Shown piece by piece: positions 23,065 to 40,328 of a DNA stretch of 64,000 nucleotides. This DNA comes from Dokdonia sinensis. GTDB lineage: Bacteria > Bacteroidota > Bacteroidia > Flavobacteriales > Flavobacteriaceae. The position numbers were made by a program, and so were the translations under genes. Numbering within the stretch: the stretch's first letter is position 1; each line of letters opens with the position of its first letter. Location: positions 62,001-126,000 of the forward strand of contig NZ_REFV01000012.1 in the NCBI RefSeq assembly GCF_003688895.1, read 5' to 3'. The notes below the pieces were generated by a model. It was not told the DNA's origin. It saw nothing but the letters and a program-made list of their open reading frames with translations, and did not search any database.

Positions 23065-23111
23065 CAAATATCTATCAGAAAATGATTCATCGTCCCACCC
23101 TAAAAAGGTAG
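23065..23111 (-). promoter_or_regulatory. Inverted-repeat promoter of the LRR gene
   Basis: Operator-like site CCACCCTAAAAAGGTAG (23095-23111), left arm one base off consensus, centred at 23103. The -7 box GATATTTG (minus strand, 23065-23072) is centred 34.5 bp downstream. Start codon at 23045. Confidence 0.55.
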
Positions 23112-23156
23112 GTTTGTATTTTTTTCCTATAGATTTTTGTTTTCGGGACGATTAGA

Positions 23157-23175
23157 TTTTCGCTTTAAGCGAAAA
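23157..23175. repeat. Hairpin TTTTCGCTTTAAGCGAAAA
   Basis: Perfect 9-bp arms around one base, 25 bp past the stop of the thioredoxin-like gene. It could serve as its terminator, though the minus-strand T-run precedes rather than follows the stem's right arm. Confidence 0.45.
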
Positions 23176-23199
23176 AAAACTTTCAATTTGCTTTTTTAA

Positions 23200-24309
23200 T
23201 TATTTAGCTCCCAGATTTGTCTCTAAAATGGCTTGTAAAGAATCTGACTTTATACATCTCGCAACTATTATCCCTTCACTATTAATCAAGACATTATCTG
23301 GAATAATATTTACCTCATATATGGCGGCGCCATTATTCTCTTCGCCTTTAAGCTCGCTAAGATTTGTCCACGGTAATTGCTGGCGGTTAATCGCATTAAT
23401 CCAAGCCTCCTTACTCGCATCGTGGGAAATCCCTATGATTTCAAAACCACTCTTATTATAGGAATTGTAAAGCGCTATTAAATCTGGATTTGCCTTAATA
23501 CAAGGCGCACACCACGAGGCCCAAAACTCAATTAAAGTATATGTATCCCCTGAAACATCTGAAATTTTTACAATCTCACCTGCAGCATCAGGTTGCGCAA
23601 AGTCTACATATGGATCACCTACTTCTGGTTTTAGAGACTTTGCTATAAATTCCTGAATAAGCTTCCCCTTTTCGGTTGCCTTTGAGTTTTCATTCATTAA
23701 GTCGTAAAGCGCCGCTGTCATTTCTTTTCCAAAACTGAATTTGTATACATTCAGATTATTAAGGCTTATAGGACTGTTAGGAAACTCGGCGATAAAGGCA
23801 GCTGTTATACTATCTATCTTAAATTTTTTAAGCTCCATCTTTTTCTTAAGCCTTTTTATCTCCTCCCGTCGCGATGTATAAAGTGATAGACTTTCTAGCT
23901 CGACAATCTTATCGCTGGTAGCATAATAAATGTCTTTCTCTTTTTTAAGTCTATTTTTTAAAATCGATGATTGCGCGTTGAGTTTGGACCCAGTTATTGT
24001 TGCCAATTTTAACTGATCACTATTTCCAGAAATTCTAATTTCTCTCGGCTCTAACCAAAGTGACTTGTAATTTGCAGTCCCTTTTATGAGTAAAATTGCC
24101 GATGTAGGTTGCTCGATCACACCTTGAAATTCAAAATTTCCGTCTTGCACTAGACTAGAGTCCATAACCTCATTATGCATCATAAGTAGTACTGTAGACT
24201 CATCTTTGATATCTTTGAGCTGTCCATAAACTTTGAACACTTGATCATTTTTTTCATTTACACAAGACGACAATAAGAATAATAATGAGATGACAATTGA
24301 CAATTTCAT
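23200..24309 (-). CDS. TlpA/ResA-like thioredoxin lipoprotein with N-terminal DUF4369-like domain
   Basis: 369 residues. Lipoprotein signal (LLSSC, Cys16). An N-terminal beta-rich region (about 25-105) is of the kind found before TlpA-like thioredoxins in Bacteroidota. A charged helical stretch (110-170) follows, then a C-terminal thioredoxin fold with redox motif W-C-A-P-C (Cys267, Cys270) in FWASWCAPC. It probably reduces or shuffles disulfides of exported proteins or c-type cytochromes in the periplasm. No direct partner gene is adjacent. The LRR cargo downstream contains paired cysteines, but a link is speculative. Confidence 0.9.
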   Translation of the reverse strand: MKLSIVISLLFLLSSCVNEKNDQVFKVYGQLKDIKDESTVLLMMHNEVMDSSLVQDGNFEFQGVIEQPTSAILLIKGTANYKSLWLEPREIRISGNSDQLKLATITGSKLNAQSSILKNRLKKEKDIYYATSDKIVELESLSLYTSRREEIKRLKKKMELKKFKIDSITAAFIAEFPNSPISLNNLNVYKFSFGKEMTAALYDLMNENSKATEKGKLIQEFIAKSLKPEVGDPYVDFAQPDAAGEIVKISDVSGDTYTLIEFWASWCAPCIKANPDLIALYNSYNKSGFEIIGISHDASKEAWINAINRQQLPWTNLSELKGEENNGAAIYEVNIIPDNVLINSEGIIVARCIKSDSLQAILETNLGAK

Positions 24310-24381
24310 AAAATGGTCTTATACTCTTTTTTGGATTGAGTGCACTTAAAATATTGTAATAATGGTGATGTGGTATTCTTA

Positions 24382-24397
24382 CGCTTTCGCGAAAGCG
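24382..24397. repeat. Palindrome CGCTTTCGCGAAAGCG (intergenic)
   Basis: Exact copy between the thioredoxin-like gene start (24309) and the stop of the gene at 24420; as TACGCTTTCGCGAAAGCGTA it is palindromic over 20 bp. Confidence 0.9.
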
Positions 24398-24419
24398 TAC
24401 TTACCCCTATATCCATTTC

Positions 24420-24878
24420 CTACAGTTTTAAGGAACTCAAAAAAGATTCCTGAATCCTACTTAGTCGTGTGCACTCCGTACTAAGATCTGCATTAGGCTC
24501 CTTTAGAAATACCGCAGCACTGTGCTCCCCTATCTTCTTTATACGCTTGACCATCGATTTATTGAAACCATCTGAAAGTAAATTAGTTTCTAAAGCATCA
24601 AGTTCTTTTCTCAAATCTGTGTAAGCTGGATAAGCAACACTTTGAGAAGTAATTACCACTTTTTCTGACCCCTCATTCTTACAAAAAGAGGTTGTTTTTT
24701 CTAGAAGTCCTAGGACAAGTTGTCGCTGGATAGAATCTTTCTTTTTCTTAACATCGCTTTTGAGCCCTTTTACTGCGTCATTTTTTAACTTCTTGAGCCC
24801 AAATTGTGCGTTTGCATCTTGAGTATTTAAAAGGATGCAAAATAGAATACCAGTTAAAATTGTGAGTGATTTTTTCAT
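24420..24878 (-). CDS. Secreted protein of unknown function (152 aa)
   Basis: Signal peptide about 1-24 (ends DANAQ). A very basic stretch (LKKLKNDAVKGLKSDVKKKK) follows, then a mainly helical domain. The C-terminal segment LKEPNADLSTECTRLSRIQES resembles KKEPEADLSVPCDRLNKLNEA in the secreted protein at 26263-27951, so the two genes share a small domain with one conserved Cys. No family recognised. It has its own upstream inverted repeat (24933-24949), so it is probably coregulated with the neighbouring operon. Confidence 0.78.
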   Translation of the reverse strand: MKKSLTILTGILFCILLNTQDANAQFGLKKLKNDAVKGLKSDVKKKKDSIQRQLVLGLLEKTTSFCKNEGSEKVVITSQSVAYPAYTDLRKELDALETNLLSDGFNKSMVKRIKKIGEHSAAVFLKEPNADLSTECTRLSRIQESFLSSLKL

Positions 24879-24903
24879 TGGAATGTGGTTTTAAATTCAC
24901 TTA

Positions 24904-24949
24904 CAATGTCTCCAATAATTAAAGTATTTGTACTACCCGAAATGGGTGG
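24904..24949 (-). promoter_or_regulatory. Inverted-repeat promoter of the 24420-24878 gene
   Basis: Site CTACCCGAAATGGGTGG (24933-24949), centred at 24941, 55 bp before the start codon. The -7 box at the expected place is weak (AGACATTG, 24904-24911), so this is the least certain promoter of the set, though the operator-like site is good. Confidence 0.5.
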
Positions 24950-25031
24950 TTGAAAACAAATGTCTCATTTTTAGACATTTAAACAAAATAATTTACTCCT
25001 ATAATCTATAATGCTTATAGATTGCAAGAAC

Positions 25032-25808
25032 TTACAAACCATATTTCTTCTTCATTTCTTCCATAAGCCTTAAAGCATCTTTTTGTGCCTTTTTTGCTTC
25101 TATCTCTGCCTGTCTGACTTGATCGTTTGCCTCGTCTATAGCTCTCTGCTTTTCTGATGCGATACGATTTTTTTCTTCGTTGCGTGCAAGTTCTGCTTGC
25201 GCTTTCTGTTTTAAGGTTTGATTCGCTTTTAATGTAAACCACGATAATATTTCCTCTTCTGAGGCAATATTTCTTTGCGCAGCCAATAATTTTTCTACAT
25301 CAATGTCCTCTGGGCTGGCGAGACAAACACGTTTTAGTTCTAGAGCTAATGCTCTAAAATCAGCTTGCTTTTTGGTATCTCCCACAATAGCAAAGAATAC
25401 AACTGGTAAATCGACTAGATTATAAGCAATTGCTTTCCCTAGTTGAACAATTACTTGTTGGTTATTGTTTTTATATTCGGCTATAATCTCTGCCACATTG
25501 TTTTTATTTGATTTCAGATCAAGCTCGACCTTAGTTATACCGTCAAACCGATCTTTTTGTCTTTTTAGACCATTCCAAAATGCTTTTTGTTCCATCTTAC
25601 TGCCTTCAATTGTTATAAGCTTAGATTGATTATCCAATGCAACATCAAACATTTTTTGGGCTGTGAGAACTGCCTCTATGAAATAATTAATTTCAACATT
25701 TTCTAAATTTTGATGATATACTCCATTCGAAATATAGAGGCCGTGAGAGGCTTTTTGAGCAATTCCTATATACTCGCTTAATTTATCTTCAAAGATCGTC
25801 GTTGCCAT
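25032..25808 (-). CDS. Unknown cytoplasmic protein with C-terminal coiled coil (258 aa)
   Basis: No signal peptide or membrane segment. The N-terminal ~190 residues look like a compact alpha/beta domain (VNYFIEAVLTAQKMFD, KLITIEGSKMEQKAFW, VVFFAIVGDTKKQAD). The last ~70 residues form an Ala/Glu/Lys/Arg-rich coiled coil (ARNEEKNRIASEKQRAIDEA) ending KKKYGL. No family recognised. Its start lies 2 bp beyond the stop of the 25811-26248 gene, so the two are almost certainly cotranslated. Last gene of the operon driven from upstream of 27951. Confidence 0.8.
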   Translation of the reverse strand: MATTIFEDKLSEYIGIAQKASHGLYISNGVYHQNLENVEINYFIEAVLTAQKMFDVALDNQSKLITIEGSKMEQKAFWNGLKRQKDRFDGITKVELDLKSNKNNVAEIIAEYKNNNQQVIVQLGKAIAYNLVDLPVVFFAIVGDTKKQADFRALALELKRVCLASPEDIDVEKLLAAQRNIASEEEILSWFTLKANQTLKQKAQAELARNEEKNRIASEKQRAIDEANDQVRQAEIEAKKAQKDALRLMEEMKKKYGL

Positions 25809-25810
25809 AA

Positions 25811-26248
25811 TTATAATATTGTTGGATCTATTTTGGATTTACTATGCGCTATTTTTATTAGTGTATCCCCCCAACCATCATCTGCCCAGTTTTGTGTAAA
25901 TGTGAACCATTGCGAGTAGTGGGCACCATCTTCCTCAAATATTGCTGCGGCAATCCTATTGCGTTCTATTAGTCTATTAAATTGGTATTCTCTTATCCAA
26001 TCTTTGCTACCGTTAATAACAATTTTTGCTCCCTTTATGGTGGGGTAATTTTTCTCAAAAACAGTTAAGAATTCCTTATTTAAAGCAGGATCATTAGCAA
26101 TATCTACCGGGAGTTTTCTCACGAGTCCAGAATCATCTATACCAAGACCAACACTCTCTGCTGCTTTCTGAATTGTGCTTCCTATTAACTCCAGACCCTT
26201 ATCTCTAGCTTCAAATCCTTGTCCGATGATTTTCTTTAAGTTTATCAT
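25811..26248 (-). CDS. Unknown small cytoplasmic protein (145 aa)
   Basis: No export signal. The sequence is amphipathic at the start (MINLKKIIGQGFEARDKGLELIGSTIQ) with an aromatic, acidic C-terminal half (HYSQWFTFTQNWADDGWGD). I recognise no family. It is the middle gene of a three-gene operon: 14 bp separate it from the secreted protein upstream and 2 bp from the coiled-coil protein downstream. It presumably acts with one of them. Its product may be a partner or immunity-like protein, but nothing in the sequence settles that. Confidence 0.75.
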   Translation of the reverse strand: MINLKKIIGQGFEARDKGLELIGSTIQKAAESVGLGIDDSGLVRKLPVDIANDPALNKEFLTVFEKNYPTIKGAKIVINGSKDWIREYQFNRLIERNRIAAAIFEEDGAHYSQWFTFTQNWADDGWGDTLIKIAHSKSKIDPTIL

Positions 26249-26262
26249 AATTCTATATTAGA

Positions 26263-27951
26263 TTAGTTCACCTTATCGCAGGTCACTCGTTCTTTCATAA
26301 TGCGACCACCGCTTTTTTGTGGTTTAGACCAGCCCCCCACATAGTCAGATCTGAACACAAACTCTAGATACCCACATTTTCCCTCTGGCGTTTTGTAGGG
26401 AAAAGCTGCATAAAGTTCCCTGTATTTTTCTAGTGGTCGCTGTATGACCTTCCAGTCTCTTGTTATTATAGTGCGGGTAAATTTTTCTTTGAACCCTTGA
26501 TTATTCATAATACTGAGTAACTGTGCTTCGAGACCAGCATTTCTGGTGACGGCTCTAGGTAAGTTGTTTGCCGCGATAAACACTTCTTCCTGCTTCACCT
26601 CAACTTTTTGATAATATTCAGGACCCTCACCTTTTGATAAATCTACCTCAAAAGAACCTTTGTATAAGACTGCTCCTGTTTTTGCGGTGACTAATGCCAC
26701 CTGTGCATTCCATTTCTTTTTCCTTGGAGATTCTTTAGATAAACCACGAGCCATTTGCAATGGTGTGATATTTTTATATTTGGCCTCTTGTTTTAGGTCT
26801 GTTGTTAGATTTGGGACAACGATAAATTGATAGGTTGTGGCAGATGCGTCCCAACCTGGAAAAATGAGCATTGTCGTATTCTTTCCAGAATCATCATCTG
26901 TAAAATAACGGTCTAGCGTTAGGCCGGCAGCATCCCTTACCGTAAACTCGCCTCCAGTTCCCATAGGTTTTCCTGATGCACTCAATGTGTTGGGATCTCC
27001 TACGGCATCCATTATTGTAGCGCCAAAGTAGATGGTACCATATATCGCATCACCAGGCTCAAATACTGGATTAATTTCTACTGATGCTTCATTGCCTGCT
27101 TTATACGGCACTTTTGTAAAGACAATCTCATTTACGTGTTCTTTGTGGAAGTCTCCCGTATATATAGAAGCAAGTTCTTCTTCGGCTGCTTCGAGTTGTC
27201 TTTCGGCGGCATTTTTTATATCATTTAAGGTAGGATTATCTCCTCCTATCGCGGCAAATCCTCTTACGACCTTGAGAACTCTTTTTGACATCTTACTCTT
27301 TTTAACACCATCCATCGTGTTTACTTGGTCAAGTAGTGTGTAAAGATTTGTTGGGATCTGATATAAGTTCAAGGTTTCATCTAGATTCTCTAGTTTACTC
27401 TTAAGCTGCTTACCTTGTCCGTCTAGTTTCCCAGCCGCTTGTGCTTCTGACATTTGTTTCATCATCGCCGCTCTATCAAATGACAACACCTCATCAAAAA
27501 CGTTGTTCTGCTCTGCAAAGCGCTCATTTTCAAAAGTACCTCCTGCAAAATTCTGGTAATTATCAATAAAGAATGTAAAATTGTAATTTGCTTTTGCAAA
27601 ATCTGCCTTATTTGCACTTAATGCCTGACTCGCTTCGTTAAGTTTGTTCAATCTATCACAAGGAACAGATAAGTCTGCTTCTGGCTCTTTTTTTATAACA
27701 AAGTCCATATAGCGTCTAGCATTCTTTAAATTATTTTCCATTTTAAGCAATTCCCCTTGCTCCTTTGCTTTTTCTGCTAGGTCTAATTGTTTATTTAGAT
27801 TTTTAAAAGAAGTAGCCGCACGACTTTCTGATCCCACAGTAACAGAACCAGAACCACCGACGCAAGGGTTTGCTTGCTGGGCTCTTAGACTGGGATCTGT
27901 AAGCGAAAAACAAAAAATTAAAATAAATGGTAGGTGATATTTTGATTTCAT
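26263..27951 (-). CDS. Large secreted protein of unknown function (562 aa)
   Basis: Signal peptide about 1-25 (FSLTDPSLRAQ), with no T9SS tail, so periplasmic or surface by another route. The N-terminal helical region includes ARRYMDFVIKKEPEADLSVP, shared with the 24420-24878 product. The C-terminal two thirds are beta-rich with repeated extended segments. The final part contains the segment FAPYKTPEGKCGYLEF-like YAAFPYKTPEGKC and a last Cys in RVTCDKVN. No family recognised. First gene of an operon with two unexported unknown proteins. The leader carries the CTACCC inverted repeat. Confidence 0.82.
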   Translation of the reverse strand: MKSKYHLPFILIFCFSLTDPSLRAQQANPCVGGSGSVTVGSESRAATSFKNLNKQLDLAEKAKEQGELLKMENNLKNARRYMDFVIKKEPEADLSVPCDRLNKLNEASQALSANKADFAKANYNFTFFIDNYQNFAGGTFENERFAEQNNVFDEVLSFDRAAMMKQMSEAQAAGKLDGQGKQLKSKLENLDETLNLYQIPTNLYTLLDQVNTMDGVKKSKMSKRVLKVVRGFAAIGGDNPTLNDIKNAAERQLEAAEEELASIYTGDFHKEHVNEIVFTKVPYKAGNEASVEINPVFEPGDAIYGTIYFGATIMDAVGDPNTLSASGKPMGTGGEFTVRDAAGLTLDRYFTDDDSGKNTTMLIFPGWDASATTYQFIVVPNLTTDLKQEAKYKNITPLQMARGLSKESPRKKKWNAQVALVTAKTGAVLYKGSFEVDLSKGEGPEYYQKVEVKQEEVFIAANNLPRAVTRNAGLEAQLLSIMNNQGFKEKFTRTIITRDWKVIQRPLEKYRELYAAFPYKTPEGKCGYLEFVFRSDYVGGWSKPQKSGGRIMKERVTCDKVN

Positions 27952-27970
27952 TGTATAGTGTATTAAGAAC

Positions 27971-28017
27971 TAAAACTAGCGACAATAATCTCATAGAATA
28001 CTACCCAAAACAGGTAG
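27971..28017 (-). promoter_or_regulatory. Inverted-repeat promoter of the 27951-25032 operon
   Basis: Site CTACCCAAAACAGGTAG (28001-28017), centred at 28009. The -7 box TAGTTTTA (minus strand, 27971-27978) is centred exactly 34.5 bp downstream. Start codon at 27951. Confidence 0.6.
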
Positions 28018-28024
28018 GTAACGT

Positions 28025-28052
28025 AAAAAGGGCTACCCAAATAGGTAACCCC
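28025..28052 (-). terminator. Terminator of the M4 protease gene
   Basis: On the minus strand GGGGTTACC-TATTTG-GGTAGCCC is followed by TTTTT, 41 bp after the protease stop. Its arms contain the same CTACC/GGTA letters as the adjacent inverted-repeat operator, so the sequences could interact or have a common origin. Confidence 0.8.
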
Positions 28053-28092
28053 TCTTACTTCCAAAACACTAACTACTTAAAAAGTACTTTTA

Positions 28093-31000
28093 CTATTTCT
28101 TAATTAATCTTTGATTAGTCTCCTCACCATCGATCATTGTGCATCGTACAATATAAACTCCGGCTTGTAAAGTTGATATATCATAGGACTGATCATAATC
28201 ATTAAAAGTCTTTACTAGACTTCCTTTCATATCATATACAGAGATTTGAATAAAATCTTCCTCTGTAAGACCCTTTAACTCAAATGTATTTTGAACTGGG
28301 TTAGGATATACAATGATTTCATCATATTCTATTACATCGTTTGATTCTTTAATTGAATTTGCCCCTAACGTAGTTACAACAGTTCCAGAGGTGGAAGGTA
28401 AGTTTCCTCCAGTAATCCCTTCAATAAGCGTGGCATCGACAAAAATCTGATCTCCATTTCCACTTGCATCACAACGCAATCTCAATCTAGAGTTTTGAGA
28501 AAATGCAAAATCGCTGTTTCTTATCGTTGCATTCATCTGGAAATCGCCGTTGTTAAATATCTCAACATTATTTACGAAGTTAGAAACAACTTGCCATCCA
28601 GATCCATTATTGAATTCTAAGAAGAAATTTTCTTGACCTTCAAAACTGAAAACGTGAACGAGAAATTCAAAATTCATATAATCGTAAGCAGTTAAGTCAA
28701 ACGTAGGTGATATCATACTAGAGTTTTGCCCAGAATTATCTCTTAGTCTTATACTCCTATTCCCTTCTAAGGATCTCGCGTCTGTTCTTCTGTGAGCATC
28801 CCAGCCTCCATCTATCCATCCGTCCCAACTGGTCTCAAAATAACCTTGGTTTAATGTCACACTTGTCATTGCACCTTGGGTAGTAGCGGTAACGGTATTA
28901 CTTTCCCCCGAAAAGTTACCGCCTACATCCCAAGTTAAAATTTCAAAATTATAAGTGATCCCTGGCGTTAAATTGCCTATGGTATATTGGTTTGTTCCTG
29001 CTTGCCAAATATTTGCCCACACGCTACCATTTACTAATAAAAGTTGAGAAAATATCCCTTCATTATCTGTTGCTGGTGTCCAGCTTAAGGTAGCCTCTGT
29101 AGCCGTATTACTCACTAGTGAAAGATCTGTAATCGTAGATGGCGGGATTAAATCTAGAGTATCACCATTTGAAACTCTCAAGCATATTTGATCTGTCTGC
29201 CCGTAAATTATATTACTTCCAGAAGTCAATACATTATTACCATCTTTTAATTCGTAAGAAGTTCCATTTGAACCGAAATCCACAAAAATGAAGTTGTAAT
29301 CACCATCAGGTAATGTTGATATATCAATGTTTTCTGTAAGCGAACTTCCTGGCGTTTGATTATAATATTGACCATTTGCACTAGCTTTCACGACCACATA
29401 GTTTGCGTCCTTTATTATCCATTGTAAAAACTCTGGATTAGTTCCAAAGGTCATTTCTAATTGTAAGGACTGCGCACAAGAACTGGCAGCAGTAGTAATG
29501 TTGAGCACAGCACTTTTTGCAGACTCATTACCAGCGCCATCATAGGCCAGCACTTCAAACCCATAAGCAGTTCCTGTTATAAGTCCAGTAACCGTAGCCG
29601 CGTTTGAAGATACATCGGCAATTTGAACTCCGTCCTGAAATACTTTATATCCTGCTACCCCAACATTATCAACAGAGGCATCCCAGCTTAAGTCTAGACT
29701 TTGCTCAGCCACATTGTTTGCTACCAGATTTATAGGTATAGAGGGAGCCTGACTGTCACAAGAAGCACCAGTAGTTGTAAAAGTGATTTTACCGCCTGGC
29801 GAGGACACATTGTTATCAGGATCTGTAGCAAAAGCCACCACCGTGTAGGTTGTACAAGGCAGAAGTCCTGTAATAGTTCCTGTGTTTCCAGCATAGTAAG
29901 GCTGTATCTGCTTATTTAAATATAAATAAGAAGCGACAACAGCTACGTTATCTGTATACGTTCCCCATTCAAAATCTGCAGTAGTGTCTGAAACACTTGT
30001 TAAGTTAAAATAGCTAGGTCCTACGGGCTGTTCAAAATCAAAAACTCTAGTTCCCGCATTGCCCACGCAATATTCTGCTCCTTTGGAAAAGTCGAAGTTA
30101 TTTAGCTCCATTAAAATATTACCATTCAAATCCTTCATTCTAAACCCACCAGAATAACCCCCGGTTGTTAGACCGTCACCATCTAAATCGTAAATATGTA
30201 TTTTATAAGATCCCAAAGATGGTAGTGCGAGAGGTTGACTCACATAGGTAGTCCCTGGTACTTCGTTTTCAAAACTTCCAGGACCAGCGCCTACAACAAG
30301 TCCACCATTTTGATCAATTACGTATAGCATTATATCCTGTGGATTACCGTCAATATCTATTTCAAAAATAACATCTGCAGGGCCACAAGTAATTGAAGTC
30401 TGTCCATAAGCTGGCCCCACTCCTACTGTATGCCACGCATCTGTTACGGCAATTTCCTCTGGACTTCCTATCCCATATAAATCACGAGCAGCCTCAATAC
30501 TTCCCACTCTCGAGTCGTGATATTGTGAGCTGGGCGAGAGGTAAACGGTTAGATTTCTGTAAGCAATAGCTGCGGCTTTATCTGGACCTATTCCCGTAAT
30601 ATTATAAGTATTTCCAACTTCGTTTGTACCAGACTGACCTTCAGTAATTAAATAAAACCAATGATTCTGGACACCGCTATTTGTGTGAACACCGCCATTA
30701 TCTAAATTAAATGGATCATCTGTCCAATGGGTGCCGTGATAAAATTTAGGGTCAAAATGAATATTTGGGTTTTCCATATTTCTAAAACCCTCCGTAGGTT
30801 TAGCAGGATCGAGGCCTCGTCCAATTTCCCAGTCTTTTACATTTATAGCCTTATACTTAGACATAAACCCAAAAATATCTGCAAAGCTCTCGTTGAGTTG
30901 TCCCGACTCATTACTATAAATTAAACTTGCCGAATACTGAACAACACCGTGACTAAGCTCGTGCCCCGCGACCTCAAGATGGCTCAGCGGATTTGACGTA

Positions 31001-32010: not shown

Positions 32011-32037
32011 ATTTAGAATTGATAGTTAATACGATGT

Positions 32038-32084
32038 TAAAATTAGTCTGTAAGGTGGTGCCTTGTCCTACCCGCAAAGGGTAG
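32038..32084 (-). promoter_or_regulatory. Inverted-repeat promoter of the M4 protease gene
   Basis: Site CTACCCGCAAAGGGTAG (32068-32084), perfect 6-bp arms, centred at 32076. The -7 box TAATTTTA (minus strand, 32038-32045) is centred 34.5 bp downstream. The site starts 13 bp from the stop of the kinase gene. Confidence 0.62.
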
Positions 32085-32096
32085 TAAATCAAATAT

Positions 32097-34919
32097 TTAG
32101 GCTATTGATCCTTGTAGGACGACGGTAGTACCTGTGGGAAGTGTATCGATATGGAACGTGAAGTTTATTTTTGATGCTCGCTCTTTCATATAGGATAGGC
32201 CTCTTGTTTTTTTTGCTTTCGCGAAAGCGTACCCTTTGCCATTATCGATACATTGCATCTTTACCAAAGGATGGTCGTACTGAAATTTTAAATGCACCAT
32301 TGTCGCATCTGAGTGCTTTGCCACATTTGTAATGGCTTCCTTAAAAATCAAGATGATCTGTCTGTTATAGTAGTAGGGTAATCTGGGATTATTAGGTATA
32401 TCCTTTTCGATCTCACACTCTATATTCCAACTCGATAAATAGTCTCGCGAGAAATCAATGATATAATCTACCACCTCAAGAAGATAATCACTATCAGGTT
32501 GCAAGGAAAACATAAAATCTCGAGTTCCCCTATAAAGATCCTCAGCATCTGTTTTTACCGTAGTGAGGGATTTATGGGTAAAGGAGTCTAGAGCGGCATC
32601 TGTTTCTGAAAGAATGTGCTCTGAGACCATTGTTATTCTAGCAAGTTTATTTCCCATCTCATCGTGAAAATCTTTTGCCATTCTATCACGCACCTGCGCA
32701 AGTTCTTTCTCTAGCGTTGTCTTTGAAGTAATTGCCTCATTAAGAATCGTATTTCTCTTTCTAGTATTCTTAAGCTTAGCAGAAATAATAAGTATCATAA
32801 ATAATGAGAGGATTGCTGTGCTCCCTATCAAAAACACAGGCTGCATATACCACGGGTCTCTAAGCTGGAATTGAAATGTGTCACTATATCCCCAGACTCC
32901 ATCTATTTTCTTTGATCGAAGCTGGAAGTTATAATCACCTTGTTCCAGATTGTTAAAGTCTAAAACAGTCTCTTTTGTACTAATCCAGGGGTCATCATTG
33001 ATCTGGTATTGAGAAATTAGAGCATCAGCCCGGTTATAGGAAATAATATTAAGGTCAAATTTATTTCCGCTTTGATTAATATGTATGAGAGGTGCCTCCT
33101 GATACTGAATATCCATAGTATTATCTATACTATATCCCCCATCATTTGTTCCGAACCACATCTCTTTACCTGAATCTTCATAAAAACTTGTGATGTAAGA
33201 AGACCCCAAACTGTTTTTAAGATAAAGTCGCTCCAGCTTTTCGTCTTTATAAATTACGATTCCGTTATTTGTACCTAACCAGATTTGACCTTTAAAATCT
33301 ATGGTTACTGCATTTATTTCTAATTTCTCTGTTCCTTCTATTTGGGTTATATTTTCATTCTTATCCACCACAAAAAGACCATTACTAGTAGCCATAAACA
33401 TCTGGTCATCGTCTTTGTAAAATTGATGTATCTGATAGTCTATTTTTGGATAGGAAAGAAGCTCATTATTACTCTCAACCAGAAGCCCTGAATTAGTAGC
33501 AATCATCAACTTGTCGTTAAACACCACCATATCATTCATAAGTAGCGCTACAAGTTTTCTGTCTTTGATGAGTTTAGTATCATTAGGAAATAGTAGTGTA
33601 TCCTCTTTTATTCTATAAACGCCTTGTTGCGTTTCATAAGCTATAGACTCTATACCTATCTCAATTTTAGGAATCGATATTTGGTCATTTAAATCCCTCT
33701 CAAAAACACTTAATCTTATTTTATTTTCAATTTTTGAAATTTTGTTAGGTGAATTTTTAAGAGATCTCTCCATCTCTAACTTATGATCTTTATAAATAAA
33801 TAAACTATTATCTGAGAGCAGAAATACTTGGTCATCGAGACCTTCTATATCTTTTATCAATTTATTTCGTGTCCCTTTATATTCTTTAAAAGCATACTTC
33901 TCTGGAGCAAAAAAACAATATACTCCTTGTCCATAAGAAGAAACCCAAATATTTGACTCGTGATCCAGCAATATGTCAGAAATGTTCGTTTTTATATTCA
34001 ATGCTGCGGTAACATCCTGAATCTTATTGCCTTCCAGGTCGTAGGTTACTAATTTTTGAGGTAGTGTACTTTTTCCACTCAGGATTAAAATCTTATCAAA
34101 ATAGCGTATCGCTTTAAATAGCACGTCATTAAAATCCTTCAGTACTATTTTTTTAATGATTCTATTGCCTTGGACCATCATTATAGTGTTTCCGCTACCG
34201 GCATAAATGATATCATCCTTGTAGGAAAGTGTGGAAATATTAAACTCTTTAAGCGCGTTAAATGCCCTTGTGAGCTCTAGGTTTTGGCTTATTTCATACA
34301 CCCCATTTACGGTGTTTTTGATAGGATGATTCCTGCCTGTTATGTACAGTTTATCCTTAATTTTATGAAATTGTATAGGGACTTGTACGGGTTTCTGGTT
34401 TACAACTATTCTAAGTGAATCGTTCTGAAAGCTCAGTTGAAAATTTGTCTTTTCGTAAACTCCATTATTATTTTTTCTAAACAGGAAATTATCAGATATA
34501 GAAGTACTCCAAAGAGCACCGTAAGCAGAGACAAGATTATTTACTTTTGACAGGCTGTCTCGTGGCACTAATCTTCTGAAAGACTGGTTGTCAAGCTGAT
34601 ACAATCCTCGTCCCCATGTACCTGCAACAAGATTGTTTTTGTGTAGAATAGGTGCTATTACATAATTAGAATGAAAACCTTGACCCGTTCTAAAATTTTT
34701 AAAAGTGTTCCCGTCAAACTTAGATAAGCCATCATCAGTACCAACCCAAATGTATCCTTTATCATCTTGCTCCAAGCCATAACATAAATTATTAGGTAGA
34801 CCGTCTACGGTTGTAAAATGAGCAAAACGATTTTGACTAATGCTGTTGTAAAAACAACAGAGGAAGATAAGTGTAATGTGGTAACGCACTAAAGAGTATT
34901 TGTATCTAAAAGTAATCAA
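32097..34919 (-). CDS. Hybrid-type sensor kinase with two-component-regulator propeller repeats
   Basis: 940 residues. N-terminal signal/anchor, then a long periplasmic sensor of propeller repeats (DDKGYIWVGTDDGLSKFDG, ESNIWVSSYGQGVY, GQIWLGTNNGIVIY, EMWFGTNDGGYSID). A Y_Y_Y-like domain (DFNNLEQGDYNFQLRSKK) and one membrane helix (~698-716) follow. A HisKA_3 domain has His752 in DFHDEMGNKLARI, and the HATPase has DNGKG. Its start overlaps the regulator stop by 3 bases as TTGA, so it begins with TTG, or with GTG at 34889 (which gives a tidier signal peptide). The 16-bp palindrome lies in frame just after DNGKG, adding AFAKA where the paralogue at 35538 has FKQEK. Confidence 0.9.
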   Translation of the reverse strand: MITFRYKYSLVRYHITLIFLCCFYNSISQNRFAHFTTVDGLPNNLCYGLEQDDKGYIWVGTDDGLSKFDGNTFKNFRTGQGFHSNYVIAPILHKNNLVAGTWGRGLYQLDNQSFRRLVPRDSLSKVNNLVSAYGALWSTSISDNFLFRKNNNGVYEKTNFQLSFQNDSLRIVVNQKPVQVPIQFHKIKDKLYITGRNHPIKNTVNGVYEISQNLELTRAFNALKEFNISTLSYKDDIIYAGSGNTIMMVQGNRIIKKIVLKDFNDVLFKAIRYFDKILILSGKSTLPQKLVTYDLEGNKIQDVTAALNIKTNISDILLDHESNIWVSSYGQGVYCFFAPEKYAFKEYKGTRNKLIKDIEGLDDQVFLLSDNSLFIYKDHKLEMERSLKNSPNKISKIENKIRLSVFERDLNDQISIPKIEIGIESIAYETQQGVYRIKEDTLLFPNDTKLIKDRKLVALLMNDMVVFNDKLMIATNSGLLVESNNELLSYPKIDYQIHQFYKDDDQMFMATSNGLFVVDKNENITQIEGTEKLEINAVTIDFKGQIWLGTNNGIVIYKDEKLERLYLKNSLGSSYITSFYEDSGKEMWFGTNDGGYSIDNTMDIQYQEAPLIHINQSGNKFDLNIISYNRADALISQYQINDDPWISTKETVLDFNNLEQGDYNFQLRSKKIDGVWGYSDTFQFQLRDPWYMQPVFLIGSTAILSLFMILIISAKLKNTRKRNTILNEAITSKTTLEKELAQVRDRMAKDFHDEMGNKLARITMVSEHILSETDAALDSFTHKSLTTVKTDAEDLYRGTRDFMFSLQPDSDYLLEVVDYIIDFSRDYLSSWNIECEIEKDIPNNPRLPYYYNRQIILIFKEAITNVAKHSDATMVHLKFQYDHPLVKMQCIDNGKGYAFAKAKKTRGLSYMKERASKINFTFHIDTLPTGTTVVLQGSIA
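32214..32229. repeat. Palindrome copy inside the propeller kinase gene
   Basis: TGCTTTCGCGAAAGCG, translated in frame as A-F-A-K-A (residues ~898-902) in the ATP-lid region. Confidence 0.88.
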
Positions 34920-35533
34920 ATAAGCTTTTGATCAGACGCGATCTGGATAGCACTTTCCTTATCATGCACCTGTAACTTATCGTAAATATTCTTTATGTGA
35001 AATTTTATGGTATTAGGACTTACATCCATTTTTATTGCTACACCTTTGTAACTGCTTCCTTGTGACAGCAAAGTAAGCACCTCCGTTTCACGGTCAGTAA
35101 GAATACTTTCTGGAGCTTTCTGGAAAGAATTTACGACCATTTTTGCTATTTGAATACTCATAGGAGCACCTCCTTGAACAGCTTCATTTAAGGCATCTTC
35201 TATTTTTGAGCCTGTGGCATTTTTTGTTAGGTATCCACAAGCTCCTGCACATAAGGCATCAAAAACGTAGTTAGAATGCTCAAAAACGGTAACCATTATT
35301 ATAAGCGTACTAGGTTTTATTTTCTTTATTTCTTTAGTGCCTTGAATCCCGCTCATTCCCGGAAGTTCTATATCCATTAAAACGATATCTGGCGCGTCGT
35401 TTCTAAAATTTTCTATGGCGTCTTCGCAATTGAGATATGTCGCCGCAATCTTAAAATTATCTAACTTATCTACACTCCTACTAAAGACTTCATTTAGTGT
35501 CTCGTTATCCTCTATAATGACTACTTTATACAT
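34916..35533 (-). CDS. LuxR/NarL-family response regulator
   Basis: 205 residues. The receiver domain (1-120) has Glu8/Asp9 in IIEDN and phospho-acceptor Asp54 in VLMDIELPG. The C-terminal LuxR helix-turn-helix (about 138-196) includes LTDRETEVLTLLSQG and SPNTIKFHIKNIYDKL. It is sandwiched between two HisKA_3 kinases: 4 bp separate it from the upstream kinase stop and it overlaps the downstream kinase start, so one mRNA encodes both kinases and the regulator. It is the obvious candidate to bind the CTACCC-N5-GGGTAG sites before six nearby units, including its own operon. Confidence 0.95.
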   Translation of the reverse strand: MYKVVIIEDNETLNEVFSRSVDKLDNFKIAATYLNCEDAIENFRNDAPDIVLMDIELPGMSGIQGTKEIKKIKPSTLIIMVTVFEHSNYVFDALCAGACGYLTKNATGSKIEDALNEAVQGGAPMSIQIAKMVVNSFQKAPESILTDRETEVLTLLSQGSSYKGVAIKMDVSPNTIKFHIKNIYDKLQVHDKESAIQIASDQKLI

Positions 35534-35537
35534 AAAG

Positions 35538-37328
35538 CTATGCTATTTTAAGAATTTCAAAATCTGGTAATTGTCCTTCAAATTTTATTTCCGTTCCTGA
35601 GTCGTTTGAGACTACTGCTAGACTACAATGAATCCTCCTTGCTCTATGGACCATATTATTAAGACCATTTTTCCTAGAAAGTTTCTCTTGTTTAAACCCT
35701 GCTCCATTGTCCTTAATGGTAATGAATAAGAAATTATTCTTAAGTATAAAAGATAAAATAATTGTCTCACAATTACTGTGTTTAATGGCATTGGTTATTG
35801 CCTCTTTACAGATAAGTATGATTTGCCTGTTCCAATAATAAGGGATTTGAGGATTAGCGTCATTTTTAAAAATCAAATCTATGTCCTTATCAAAACTATT
35901 AATATAGTCCAGAGCAAAGTCTGCAATGTAAGCATACACATCCTCTAGGGTATCACTCTCTGCACGTAATGAGAACATAAAATCTCTGGTACCGCTATAC
36001 AACTCATTTGCATCTCGCTTAATAATTGTGAGCGCATCGAGAAAGTCTGCTTGGGTTTTTGTTTCTTTTTCTTGAATAATATGGTCCGATATTGTTGTTA
36101 TACGAGCCAACTTATTCCCCATATCATCGTGAAAATCTTTGGCAATATTATCTCTTACTTCCTTAAGCTCGATAAGCAGTTTTGACCGATTATTTATAAG
36201 TGACTTTAATTGCTTATTCTTATTTTTTGACTTACGCAATTGCCATATAAACAATACACTTAAAATTAAAATGGCGATGATTACGACAACTAAAATTAGG
36301 TTGTTTTTATTTGCAATTATAAGTTCCTGTTGAGAATTTTGTGCTTTCAATTCTGCGTTTTCCCTTTCTTTTTTTTCTGCCTCGTATTTGGATTCGATCT
36401 CGAGAACATTAGCTAGTCGTTGCTCATTATTAAAGCTATCTCTAAGTTTCACAGCCTCTTGTTGAACAGAAAGTGCATCTTTATATTTTCTTTGAGCTTG
36501 GAGTATCTTGCTTTTAAACTCAACCCTTTCAATATAGGCTGGATCTTTTTTAAGAATATTCATTAGCGACAACGCCTCATCTATATCGCTAGCGGCAAGA
36601 TTATATTCACCTAAATGGAAATACGCTTGTGCTCGATAAAAAATAGCATCATCTTTTTGAGTACGCTGTATGATATCCCAAAAATCATTTTTGATACTCT
36701 TTACTAGTTCTATAACCTCAACATATTCACCTTGTAATAATTTATTTTTGGCTAAAAATTTTAAAACTGCTGCTTCTAGAAATCTAATTCCTTTTTCCTT
36801 GCTTAGTACTCTTGCCTGTTTTAAGAGAAGTTCAGATTTTTCAAGTTGGTTCAGACTCAAATAGACACTCCCAAGGTTAGATATTGTTGAAACATAGATC
36901 TCCGCATCCTCCTCTAAAGTAACTTCTGACAGTAGAGTTTTGTAAACCTTCTCTGCTCTTTCGTATTCATCTATTTTAGACCAAATCATTCCCAAATTAT
37001 TACTTAGATCTAAATAGGTTTGTCGTTTTCCTATCGCTTTCGCTAAATCGATTGCCTTAATGACATTATCTGTAGAGGCCTCATAATCTCCTTGAACAAA
37101 ATAATAAAAACCTAATCTGTCAAAGACTTGCAGTTTTAAAGAATCTGATTTTTCTCGTTTTGCAATGGTATCCATTTCCTGTAATAAATGGAAGGCTTCT
37201 TTACCATTACCACCACGCAATAGTATACTTGCGCTGTCTTTTAATTTCTTAAAGGTTTGAGCAGATTGAGAGTTTACGGGTATCGTAAATAAAATAAATA
37301 TGTATAAAATGAATCTGCCGTTTTGCAT
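35538..37328 (-). CDS. Tetratricopeptide-repeat sensor histidine kinase
   Basis: 596 residues. Signal-like N-terminus (MQNGRFILYIFILFTIPVNS), about seven TPR helices pairs (30-330; e.g. LDLSNNLGMIWSKIDEYERA, FYRAQAYFHLGEYNLAASD), a coiled-coil, and one membrane helix (~342-364). A HisKA_3 domain has His400 in DFHDDMGNKLARI, and the HATPase has DNGAG. Paralogous to the 32097-34919 kinase over the last 200 residues. First gene of the operon. The -7 box of its promoter ends 5 bp before the ATG, so the mRNA may be leaderless. Confidence 0.93.
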   Translation of the reverse strand: MQNGRFILYIFILFTIPVNSQSAQTFKKLKDSASILLRGGNGKEAFHLLQEMDTIAKREKSDSLKLQVFDRLGFYYFVQGDYEASTDNVIKAIDLAKAIGKRQTYLDLSNNLGMIWSKIDEYERAEKVYKTLLSEVTLEEDAEIYVSTISNLGSVYLSLNQLEKSELLLKQARVLSKEKGIRFLEAAVLKFLAKNKLLQGEYVEVIELVKSIKNDFWDIIQRTQKDDAIFYRAQAYFHLGEYNLAASDIDEALSLMNILKKDPAYIERVEFKSKILQAQRKYKDALSVQQEAVKLRDSFNNEQRLANVLEIESKYEAEKKERENAELKAQNSQQELIIANKNNLILVVVIIAILILSVLFIWQLRKSKNKNKQLKSLINNRSKLLIELKEVRDNIAKDFHDDMGNKLARITTISDHIIQEKETKTQADFLDALTIIKRDANELYSGTRDFMFSLRAESDTLEDVYAYIADFALDYINSFDKDIDLIFKNDANPQIPYYWNRQIILICKEAITNAIKHSNCETIILSFILKNNFLFITIKDNGAGFKQEKLSRKNGLNNMVHRARRIHCSLAVVSNDSGTEIKFEGQLPDFEILKIA

Positions 37329-37333
37329 AGGCG

Positions 37334-37380
37334 TAAATCTAAGTCCTCCTAGAACAAATGAACCTACCCAAAATGGGTAG
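37334..37380 (-). promoter_or_regulatory. Inverted-repeat promoter of the kinase-regulator-kinase operon
   Basis: Site CTACCCAAAATGGGTAG (37364-37380), perfect arms, centred at 37372. The -7 box TAGATTTA (minus strand, 37334-37341) is centred 34.5 bp downstream. The start codon at 37328 leaves room for almost no 5' leader. Confidence 0.62.
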
Positions 37381-37389
37381 GTAACACTA

Positions 37390-37411
37390 AACCCCAGCTC
37401 GCGCTGGGGTT
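37390..37411. terminator. Hairpin after the FN3 secreted protein gene
   Basis: AACCCCAGC-TCGC-GCTGGGGTT, 38 bp past the stop at 37450. The T-run is stronger on the plus strand (TTTTT) than on the minus strand (TTT), so termination of the minus-strand gene is plausible but not ideal. Confidence 0.6.
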
Positions 37412-37449
37412 TTTACACAAATAACTTATTAACTTGATATGAGAAAAAT

Positions 37450-40257
37450 TTAAACTTTAATTAATTTCATTACTTGTGCGTTATCGTTTTCACTTATAAT
37501 TTGAATAATATATATCCCTGAGCTTAGATCTTGAATATTATAATTTTCCTCCTTTGTAAAACGCTTTATTTTACTTCCATTTAAGGTATACACCGTCACC
37601 TCTTTTACATTAAAGTTTGATGTTTCTATTGAAAAGAAATCTGAAACTGGATTTGGATATATCCTTGCAGTACCATTAGAAGAAAAATCATTGAGACTCA
37701 GAGAGCTTGTTGTAAAACTCAATACATCGCTAAACTCGGTATCAGCCCCATTACACAATGCTTTGACATAAACATCATACTCGGTCTCGATTTCAAGAGA
37801 AGAAAATGCAAACATTGTTTCATCCGTTAGACCTGTTTGAATAGGTGTATCTGTATTAGGGTCATCACCTGTTGCCATCAACACTATTTCAAAATCAACA
37901 GCATCACCTTCTGGCCCTGTCCAATTTACAACAACACTATCTGATGATATTTCAGAAACCTCGACGTTTACAGGTGTTGTACAAGCAGCGGTTGTAACCT
38001 CTGTAACTTCAGAAAAACCACTATCTACACCATCACATTGAGAAACTATATAAACATCATAAGCAGTATCAGCATTTAAACCTGTGATGGATGTCGCAGT
38101 ACCCGTGGTGATAAAGTCCCTTATAGGAGTATCCATACTAGGATCTGCTCCATCTCCCATAATAAGAACTTGATACGTTCCTTCATTGTCCGTAGTACCT
38201 ACCCATAAGATATCAAAACTATCTGTTGTAACATTCTGTATAGATATATCACTCACCACAGTACAAGCAAGCGTTGTAAATGAAACCACCGTAGAGAATG
38301 GACTGTCACCGCCAGCACAAATAGAGCTCACATAAACGTCATACGTTGTATCTGCTTCAAGTCCTATAGTATCTGTAGATGTTCCCGAGGATACTAAACT
38401 AGATTGTACTGGAGTATCCATAGTAGGATCATCCCCCTGCGCCATTATTAATACATTATAACCACTATCATTATCTGCCGTGGCATCCCAGGTTACGGTT
38501 GCCCCTGTTCCTGTGATGTTTGAGATTGATACATTTTGGGGCGTAAGACAATCTGCTTTTGTGATGCGTAATCTAGGGGAGAAATCACTTGTTCCCAGGC
38601 TACAATCACTACGCACATAAATATCATACTCCACTCCTGGAGTGAGCCCGATAATAAACGAGCCATTTTGCCCTTCTACCTCGGTAGAAACTGGGGTGTC
38701 AAAGTTAGGATTCTCTCCACTTAACATCGTTGTTATTCTATAGATTCCTGTATTATTTGGCGTGGCAGGCCAGGTAACTGTTATCCCGTTAGTACTTTCA
38801 GAAACAACAGTTGGCGCTTCTGGAGCATTACATTCGTCTTCAAACGTGAGCGTATATAATTCTCTACCAGAAGTTGCCGTATTTGCACTTATAAATAAGC
38901 CTGTCCCGGTTGGAAAAAACAAAGGATCACTTCCTGTATTTGCAGTTGTATTTATGTCAGATACTAATCGAACTAAATCATTTGATGATTTATATTCATA
39001 TAACTCGTTGCCAATTGCATCATCTTGAAGCGCATTGAAATATAAACGATCCGTAAACAATGTAATTCCGCTGATATCTGAACCGTTCATTCCTAAATTC
39101 AAATCATTTACCAGTACGGCATTACCCCCTGCATCTATTTTGTATAATTCTCTTCCTAAGCTATTATTTGTACTCGCACTAAAAAAGATCTCGTTATTGT
39201 AAAGCGTTAAATCCCTAGGAGAAGTAATTAAACCATTCCCAGATGTTGGAAAATTAACTTCACTAGTAATTCCTGAAGATAGATCTGTTTTATATAGCAA
39301 TCGTAAATTACTAGATCTTCTCGCAGAATAAAATAGTTCATTTCCTAGTTGCGCAAACAAGCCAGGATTTGCTCCTGAAAAAGTTAAATCAGAAACCAGT
39401 TCAACAGATCCATTATTTTCTAAATCTATACGATGAACCTCAAAATCTTCGTTGGTATCACGTGCTGAAAAGTATAAGTAGTTATCAATTTGTTTAAAAG
39501 CAGCTGGACTTGCTCCTCCAGAAGTATTAATGTCCGTGATTTGAACAGGAATATTAAATCCATCACCCATAAATAGTTCCTCACGAAACACACCATTTGT
39601 AGTTAAGAATTGAGAAGCTACATAAATTTTAGAACCATCATTTTTTGTAAAAACATAAGCAGATCCATTACGTCGGGCAGAGGTAGAGCCTGATCCAGTA
39701 GGTGCAATCTCCGTAATAGTATTTCCATCAGTAGCATATAGTTGAACTCCTGGTGTATTTACGCCTTCAGCTGTAAAGTATAGAAAGTCATCAGTAGCTA
39801 GAAATTGAGCAGGTAGACTACTTCCACTCGGTCTGAGATTAACTATTGAAACTGCTCCCGTAGTAATATCATATATTCCCAATTCAAATTCTGAAGCGCT
39901 TAGTCGAACTGCGTAGTAGACTTTATCTTTGAATACTGCAAAATTTTGTATGTCACTAGATGTAGGATTTAAAAAGACTGGCACAATGCTGGCGCTACCT
40001 GCTGGATCAACGGGAAAAGTTCCTGCCAAAGTTCCATCCGTTTGATATAATGCGCCATCATTTATATTATTACTGTTAGGCCTTACCCCAACAAAATAAG
40101 TAATACCATTGTCTGCTTGAAAATAGTCTGGGGACAGATTACTCGCACCAAGATTGTTGTCTCCTAAATATATAGGAGTAGACTCTTGGTCAAACATTTG
40201 GGCTAGCAAACCATTAAAGCTTAAAATAAAGCTCAACATAAATAGTAATTTTCTCAT
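37450..40257 (-). CDS. Secreted beta-propeller/FN3 protein with T9SS sorting domain (935 aa)
   Basis: Start set at ATG 40257 (MRKLLFMLSFILSF), which gives a normal signal peptide ending LLAQ; an upstream start at 40284 would bury it. Residues ~25-475 form ELW-x-TDGT-like repeats (LYQTDGTLAGTF, LYATDGNTITEI, ELYKIDAGGNAVLVND), a likely beta-propeller. Four fibronectin III domains follow (each with CT/CL-x-P-x-x-V...GATVTW and TYDVYV). The T9SS tail is IYPNPVSDFFSIET...GIYIIQI...VMKLIKV. Probably a surface or released binding protein. No enzyme motif seen. Confidence 0.9.
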   Translation of the reverse strand: MRKLLFMLSFILSFNGLLAQMFDQESTPIYLGDNNLGASNLSPDYFQADNGITYFVGVRPNSNNINDGALYQTDGTLAGTFPVDPAGSASIVPVFLNPTSSDIQNFAVFKDKVYYAVRLSASEFELGIYDITTGAVSIVNLRPSGSSLPAQFLATDDFLYFTAEGVNTPGVQLYATDGNTITEIAPTGSGSTSARRNGSAYVFTKNDGSKIYVASQFLTTNGVFREELFMGDGFNIPVQITDINTSGGASPAAFKQIDNYLYFSARDTNEDFEVHRIDLENNGSVELVSDLTFSGANPGLFAQLGNELFYSARRSSNLRLLYKTDLSSGITSEVNFPTSGNGLITSPRDLTLYNNEIFFSASTNNSLGRELYKIDAGGNAVLVNDLNLGMNGSDISGITLFTDRLYFNALQDDAIGNELYEYKSSNDLVRLVSDINTTANTGSDPLFFPTGTGLFISANTATSGRELYTLTFEDECNAPEAPTVVSESTNGITVTWPATPNNTGIYRITTMLSGENPNFDTPVSTEVEGQNGSFIIGLTPGVEYDIYVRSDCSLGTSDFSPRLRITKADCLTPQNVSISNITGTGATVTWDATADNDSGYNVLIMAQGDDPTMDTPVQSSLVSSGTSTDTIGLEADTTYDVYVSSICAGGDSPFSTVVSFTTLACTVVSDISIQNVTTDSFDILWVGTTDNEGTYQVLIMGDGADPSMDTPIRDFITTGTATSITGLNADTAYDVYIVSQCDGVDSGFSEVTEVTTAACTTPVNVEVSEISSDSVVVNWTGPEGDAVDFEIVLMATGDDPNTDTPIQTGLTDETMFAFSSLEIETEYDVYVKALCNGADTEFSDVLSFTTSSLSLNDFSSNGTARIYPNPVSDFFSIETSNFNVKEVTVYTLNGSKIKRFTKEENYNIQDLSSGIYIIQIISENDNAQVMKLIKV

Positions 40258-40281
40258 AATTATAAGTTTAAGATTAAGTTC

Positions 40282-40328
40282 CAAAACTAGTAGGGTAAAT
40301 CTTACACTGAACTACCCAAGATGGGTAG
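40282..40328 (-). promoter_or_regulatory. Inverted-repeat promoter of the FN3 protein gene
   Basis: Site CTACCCAAGATGGGTAG (40312-40328), perfect arms, centred at 40320. The -7 box TAGTTTTG (minus strand, 40282-40289) matches TAnnTTTG fully and is centred 34.5 bp downstream. Confidence 0.65.

Follow-up and report, generated by a model that had tools for sequence, protein, structure and literature searches.

An inverted repeat of the form CTACCC-N5-GGGTAG, or a near copy of it, precedes six minus-strand gene units between 19.5 and 40.3 kb of a 64,000-nucleotide (nt) stretch of the Dokdonia sinensis genome (contig NZ_REFV01000012.1, positions 62,001 to 126,000), which is referred to here as the window. 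All positions are those of the window, and the dyads, promoter boxes, and genes described lie on its minus strand. Comparison with other Bacteroidota makes it highly probable that the NarL/FixJ-type response regulator encoded at 34916..35533 has this dyad as its operator; from it, the regulator would activate its own operon and a local set of genes for secreted cargo. Within its own genome the strong sites are restricted to this cluster, and across the Bacteroidota dyad and regulator occur together.

Operator dyads and promoter geometry

An earlier note on this DNA had listed six CTACCC-N5-GGGTAG sites, and all of them were recovered in a pattern scan. The dyads at 32068..32084, 37364..37380 (that of the two-component operon), and 40312..40328 are perfect, with 0 expected from 100 shuffles; those at 24933..24949 and 28001..28017 carry one mismatch, and that at 23095..23111, before a leucine-rich repeat (LRR) protein with a type IX secretion system (T9SS) sorting domain, carries two. 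With up to three mismatches the pattern alone is close to noise in the window (16 matches versus 10.2 expected, with 6 of 100 shuffles as high), so the site at 23095 depends on its context. A weak second dyad with three mismatches at 28033..28049, which lies 32 bp farther upstream than the 28001 dyad, may be due to chance.

At all six sites, 22 nt separate the dyad end from an 8-nt -7 box, and 34.5 bp separate the two centers. The fixed dyad-to-box distance proposed in the earlier note therefore stands, although the box of dyad 24933 is poor. Perfect TAnnTTT boxes follow dyads 40312 (TAGTTTTG, 40282-40289), 37364 (TAGATTTA, 37334-37341), 32068 (TAATTTTA, 32038-32045), and 28001 (TAGTTTTA, 27971-27978), while the box 22 nt past dyad 23095 (GATATTTG, 23065..23072) has one mismatch and that of dyad 24933 (GACATTGT, 24903-24910) has two. 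Extracts from two reports place the -7 box TAnnTTTG at -12 to -5 in Flavobacterium psychrophilum and Flavobacterium johnsoniae (PMC9723704, PMC6847099). Because of this, the dyad is expected to occupy -51 to -35 with its center at about -43, presuming that the box is placed as in both Flavobacterium species, the transcription starts here being predicted ones; the position near -41 given earlier shifts to this value.

A site fixed in position and abutting or overlapping the -35/-33 region is the arrangement of a class II-like activator promoter, at which the regulator would stimulate transcription. The window promoters contain no TTTG at -33, and the single nearby TTTG, at 37364, would lie at about -29 to -26. 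Three of the four perfect window boxes have a G at -10, a base that is avoided in F. johnsoniae promoters according to an extract of PMC6847099; this unfavorable G fits activator-dependent promoters.

Co-occurrence of the dyad and the regulator in other Bacteroidota

Named genomes were scanned with the regulator protein sequence alone, and 80 loci were kept. Selection by protein only makes these loci an independent test of the regulator-dyad pairing. Loci with at least 47% identity were taken as orthologues (n = 25, including a few near-duplicates); they come from Polaribacter, Winogradskyella, Spongiivirga, Hyunsoonleella, Pedobacter, Sporocytophaga, Cytophaga, Flammeovirga, Chryseosolibacter, and metagenome bins. 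No orthologue was found in the other 17 same-genus genomes searched, where the best match had 39% identity. A composite site was scored when the half-sites were 4 or 5 bp apart, with at most one mismatch in the dyad, at most one in the box, and an offset of 21 to 23 nt between them; 77 of the 80 loci were classed in this way (all except L083, L084, and L085). The composite was present in 19 of the 25 orthologue loci, while 29 permuted half-sites, a control covering these same 25 loci, gave 0 or 1. Perfect boxes at offset 22 were found in 16 of the 25 loci; the other offsets tested, between 8 and 44, each gave no more than 3. At lower identity the composite occurred in 4 of 11 loci (37 to 46%, all with a 4-bp gap) and in 14 of 41 more distant ones (13 with a 4-bp gap and one with a 5-bp gap).

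The spacing itself is sharply defined. Over 26 loci including the window (504 kb, with a few near-duplicates), half-sites separated by 0 to 30 bp occurred 20 times with a gap of 5, 7 times with a gap of 4, and once each with gaps of 14 and 16, where 0.017 was expected per gap. When perfect boxes were counted over distinct site-strands, a lone clear peak appeared at 22 nt for both gaps (24 for the 5-bp gap, with at most 3 elsewhere, and 7 for the 4-bp gap, with at most 2 elsewhere). A scan of related genomes for the dyad about 34 bp before -7 boxes, as had been suggested, thus yields the composite at most orthologue loci and a single peak. The earlier proposal that the LuxR-type regulator binds the dyad and regulates itself gains backing from orthologues that were chosen by protein and yet carry the same dyad and 22-nt rule, often directly before the regulator gene.

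At the genome level, 20 orthologue genomes, not counting the own genome and representing 20 of the 25 loci, were compared with 394 further Bacteroidota genomes, unscreened for orthologues. The exact composite occurred in 11 of the former and in none of the latter (Fisher p = 1.3e-16); six of the 394 had one match each with one mismatch, as against six control matches. Among 397 genomes of the family, 18 contained an exact dyad, and only the own genome and a Spongiivirga (G217, L032), which has an orthologue, paired it with a perfect box at 22 nt; for the 17 others the first locus per genome was inspected (L016 to L032), and a second site in G150 (L038) was scanned for the dyad only. The exact dyads in the remaining family genomes, including L018 and L021, were set aside as chance occurrences, as they have no perfect box at 22 nt; apart from L018 and L021, no box was noticed at these dyads. 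Two of 395 genomes of the phylum contained the 4-bp composite, with the first box base free and no mismatch, as against one for the control.

In the relatives, the sites precede the regulator gene, the kinase-regulator operon, and genes for T9SS-tailed, Ig-domain lipoprotein-like, lectin-like, and DUF285 proteins. A T9SS C-terminal domain was detected at E <= 1e-3 in 13 of 25 chosen nonregulatory open reading frames (ORFs) of relatives, 10 of them above the Pfam cutoff. Homologues of the protein encoded at 26263-27951 follow a dyad in Winogradskyella and Spongiivirga (36 to 37% identity), and a T9SS-tailed homologue of the window's fn3 cargo protein lies downstream of a 4-bp dyad in Hyunsoonleella. 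In Polaribacter (L177), a dyad on another contig stands before a gene with matches to the LRR as well as the fn3 cargo; at this dispersed site, a homologue of the gene at 23200..24309 lies roughly 2 kb away. As judged from these sequence matches, the cargo at apparently dyad-controlled genes is homologous across species.

Two arrangements differ from that of the window. In G427 (Cytophagaceae), dyad-controlled, probably secreted genes lie on three further contigs (L167, L168, and L169); its regulon is thus scattered, whereas that of the window genome is not. In Pedobacter (L059 at 8634, L062 at 8636, and L064 at 7824), a -7-like box lies 22 nt off on either side of one dyad, which seems to serve two divergent promoters.

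Distribution of sites in the D. sinensis genome

The 3.65-Mb own genome contains six dyads with no more than one mismatch, five of them in the cluster and one at C5:8396, against one match for the reversed-pattern control; when two mismatches are allowed, matches to the dyad by itself amount to noise (41 versus 58 for the control). The composite CTACCC-N5-GGGTAG-N22-TAnnTTT with up to two mismatches was matched in the cluster only, by four cluster promoters and one reverse-orientation match of the 32068 dyad. Allowing three mismatches gave nine matches inside the cluster and six elsewhere, as against 4 for the control; the cluster gained the two weaker window sites and two more reverse-orientation dyad matches. 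Judged by its strong sites, the regulon is local. A general T9SS cargo regulon in this genome was accordingly rejected, and the genome-wide cargo set for which a scan had been suggested was not seen.

The sole perfect half-site pair of this genome that lies outside the window with a gap of 1 to 14 bp is at G000:C12:110120; its gap of 6 bp is a NarL-like spacing.

Helix-turn-helix sequence and spacer classes

A hidden Markov model search found 92 helix-turn-helix (HTH) domains in the window and the scanned loci. A perfect dyad with a gap of 4 or 5 bp lay within 1.2 kb of 38 of them, and within that distance of none for any of 29 permuted half-sites. The window regulator is among the 54 others, the dyad of its operon being 1.8 kb upstream of its gene. 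Many KFH helices had no nearby site, so the helix alone is no predictor of a site.

The 4-bp form, CTACCC-N4-GGGTAG at 22 nt from the box, was found in Flammeovirga (five loci, before the regulator in all five) and with one Hyunsoonleella regulator (L054, 60% identical to that of the window). In a tree of 37 rows (L083 and L085 fall outside the set of regulators, and L084 was excluded for its garbled translation), L054 falls into a starred group with nine members, the window regulator among them (100/99). Flammeovirga belongs to a second starred group, in which 5-bp regulators also occur (96/91). Some tree labels rest on mismatched dyads, with two mismatches for L081 and L126 (N5) and one for L073, L079, and L080 (N4). 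The 4-bp label requires at least four gains or losses on this tree, and spacer length therefore seems to have changed more than once.

Spacer length tracks the last helix of the HTH. A Glu in a [KR]E-x-A motif occurs there in 15 of 15 Bacteroidota rows with a 5-bp site and in 0 of 29 rows with a 4-bp site, counted by eye without correction for near-duplicates or relatedness, the nearest HTH being presumed to be the partner and the best site per nearest HTH being taken (at most two dyad plus box mismatches). Six non-Bacteroidota rows with a 5-bp site have no Glu in this helix. The apparent correspondence between spacer class and last helix is a new point of this analysis. In PMC4549865, NarL is described as dimerizing along helix alpha10. 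By our own mapping, the last HTH helix of these regulators is the counterpart of that helix, and a C-terminal dimer helix would be a plausible cause of spacer length.

These observations could be combined into a phylum-wide cis-code, in which a helix [VI]K[FY]H[IL][KR][NK]IY reads CTACCC/GGGTAG, 22 nt separate the proximal half from the -7 box downstream, and the C-terminal dimer helix determines the spacer (5 bp with [KR]E-x-A and 4 bp with no Glu), possibly also in Paenibacillus. Because the recount found a perfect dyad near only 38 of the 92 HTHs, we put this code forward tentatively, as somewhat short of an even prospect.

Some Bacteroidales loci match in the HTH only. They have a 4-bp dyad, and a GAAATT(T/A)-like box follows it at 22 nt; L096, L106, L112, L113, L115, L117, L119, and L120 have a perfect 4-bp dyad near LuxR-type HTHs. 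In L096, L106, L112, L115, and L120 the dyad lies between TPR-LuxR-like and OmpA-like genes (named by eye), and a small HTH ORF may intervene before the OmpA-like gene; in L112 such an ORF follows the dyad. An exact 5-bp dyad occurs in five Paenibacillus loci (L105, L109, L111, L114, and L123), which probably represent a single inherited case; it lies about 200 bp from where the HTH begins, and 23 nt separate it from the TATAGT -10 box that follows. The Paenibacillus palindrome is longer, with runs of A and T on its flanks, and this dyad may be a terminator, an operator being the alternative.

Predicted near-leaderless regulator genes

Of the 13 dyads that precede a regulator or first operon gene, 8 have the start codon 4 or 5 nt past the end of the box (the window kinase, L050, L051, L052, L061, L063, L067, and L068, the box of L063 being poor). 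This distance is 8 to 33 nt at the remaining five and 19 to 27 nt in the five window cargo units. With transcription starting at the fifth nucleotide after the box, the start codon would fall at +1 or +2 in the 4- to 5-nt cases. At 37328-37341 of the window, the start codon of the TPR kinase gene lies 5 nt past the -7 box, and the mRNA of its operon is predicted to be near-leaderless. In extracts of the corresponding reports, leaderless mRNAs make up 5.5% in F. psychrophilum (PMC9723704), and leaders exceed 10 nt in 87% of F. johnsoniae transcripts (PMC6847099). The predicted near-leaderless regulator genes are a second new point of this analysis.

Gene units under the dyads

The two-component operon consists, in order of transcription, of a TPR sensor kinase (35538..37328, HisKA_3/HATPase), the response regulator (34916..35533), and a second sensor kinase with a propeller (Reg_prop), Y_Y_Y, and HisKA_3 (32097..34919). 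The regulator, the proposed binder of the dyad, combines a NarL/FixJ receiver with a GerE/LuxR HTH (Pfam Response_reg, 1.6e-22; GerE, 4.8e-17). HisKA_3, the mark of partner kinases of NarL/FixJ regulators, was recognized in both flanking kinases, above the curated cutoff in the propeller kinase (26.3 versus 24) and below it in the TPR kinase (20.5 versus 24).

A recognized T9SS cargo gene leads three of the five nonregulatory units. According to Pfam, these genes encode the LRR protein (19506..23045; Por_Secre_tail and LRR), an M4 metallopeptidase with fn3 and T9SS C-terminal domains (28093..32010), and an fn3/T9SS secreted protein (37450..40257), whose start was taken at 40257 instead of the TTG at 40284. 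The first genes of the two other secreted-protein units belong to no Pfam family. One of them, at 26263..27951, encodes a secreted protein and is followed in the 28001 unit by a second and a third gene (25811..26248 and 25032..25808) for uncharacterized proteins, likewise without a Pfam family. The other, at 24420..24878, encodes a small secreted protein that matches the first part of relatives of the larger 26263-27951 protein in sequence comparison, and the two units may be paralogues. Downstream of it, 23200..24309 encodes a DUF4369/thioredoxin-like (TlpA-like) protein, identified by Pfam and homology.

Proposed mechanism and alternative explanations

We propose that a signal reaches one or both kinases, of the TPR and propeller types, and that one or both phosphorylate the regulator. 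The regulator would then sit on CTACCC-N5-GGGTAG as a head-to-head dimer centered at about -43, so placed that the half-site nearer the promoter would end at -35, in the usual place of the -33 element. From there the dimer would contact and activate sigma-A RNA polymerase at the -7 box, switching on its own kinase-regulator-kinase operon by positive feedback together with the five adjacent units of secreted or T9SS-exported proteins. The site, its geometry, and its partner are supported by comparison; the signaling and transcription steps are inferred from knowledge of the family.

Several observations weigh against this proposal. Dyad 24933 has a poor box (GACATTGT), and 6 of the 25 orthologue loci (L053, L065, L069, L078, L081, and L126) fail the composite test, L081 and L126 among them holding two-mismatch dyads at 22 nt. 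The 54 of 92 HTHs without a perfect dyad within 1.2 kb mostly keep the KFH helix. Some dyads of relatives precede genes that are not evidently secreted, such as a glycosyltransferase gene (L178) and a hydrolase-like gene (L050:12136). Two of the family dyads that we ascribe to chance lie near a box (L018, with TACATTT at 23 nt, and L021, with a one-mismatch box at 22 nt), and the 394 comparison genomes may include orthologues, as they were not screened for them. Finally, a dyad ending at -35 would crowd the -33 element and could repress by covering it.

Autoregulation by repression is common, and the same regulator might block polymerase by covering the -33 region until the kinases alter its state. 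We consider this unlikely, given that the window promoters lack a TTTG at -33, that the offset is rigid to the base, as is typical of contact activation, and that three of the four perfect boxes carry the unfavorable G at -10. That the dyads instead form RNA hairpins or terminators of the preceding gene is suggested by their position, since five of the six in the window (all but 40312) lie just 3' of that gene, by the ability of an inverted repeat to fold in RNA, and by the T-run that follows the dyad in some relatives (L059, L062, L064, and L050 at 7069). No T-run lies past the window dyads in the direction of transcription, however, and termination explains neither the 22-nt spacing to the next promoter box, nor the co-occurrence with the regulator, nor the dyad that in L052 (at 9950) lies inside the last part of the gene upstream; we therefore regard this explanation as extremely improbable.

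It is also very unlikely that another DNA-binding protein, such as a paralogous LuxR regulator, reads the dyad and that the regulator is merely a member of the regulon. The own genome contains 20 matches to the regulator, and the regulator operon is itself under a dyad, as such a reader would allow, but loci picked by this regulator alone carry the dyad, and spacer length follows the sequence of the adjacent HTH. A weaker point is that three relatives with a changed recognition helix (RFH in L053, RAH in L072, and KTH in L078) have no perfect dyad nearby, as the same is true of many unchanged ones.

Relation to known systems and significance

The closest parallel to the proposed activator and its operator is Escherichia coli NarL, which has the same receiver and GerE HTH (PDB NarL chains 1a04, 1je8, and 8u3b match the regulator) and similar TACCC/GGGTA half-sites. 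In the extract of PMC4549865, the engineered NarL site TACCCCTAAAGGGGTA, which the half-site resembles, has its TACCC halves 6 bp apart, and NarL sites lie at -40 to -49 at napF and -38 to -47 at yeaR, so that the dimer site at these two activated promoters (-38 to -49) is in a position similar to that found here. The spacing in the present dyads is 5 (or 4) bp, the 7-2-7 arrangement is absent, and the system is therefore better called NarL-like than a NarL system. Also unlike NarL, the outer C/G is conserved, the position is a single rigid one, the promoter is a Bacteroidota sigma-A promoter with a -7 box, and there are no nitrate genes among the described units.

The best PDB sequence matches of the whole regulator are VraR/LiaR-type regulators (5hev, 7ve6, and 4gvp), with TVKTHVSNI in the VraR HTH versus TIKFHIKNI in the window regulator; the VraR operator class differs from this dyad. 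PorX is not known to have a LuxR HTH. PorX/PorY is reported to be, as here, a two-component control tied to type IX secretion in Bacteroidota, but here the cargo rather than the secretion machine would be under control. The Flavobacterium sigma-A promoters (TTTG/TAnnTTTG), as described in the extracts, share the -7 box, while here the proximal dyad half would replace the -33 element. Among the top-ranked papers listed by keyword searches of open-access full text, with subscription literature outside their scope, none describes this operator.

By sequence comparison alone, an operator, a promoter geometry, a regulator, and its targets can be linked across several families, which gives predictions for binding and expression tests. 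The arrangement could provide a portable activatable promoter for Bacteroidota, and its two spacer classes offer a natural test of a dimer interface setting operator spacing. If the cis-code is true, it would allow regulons to be read straight from genomes.

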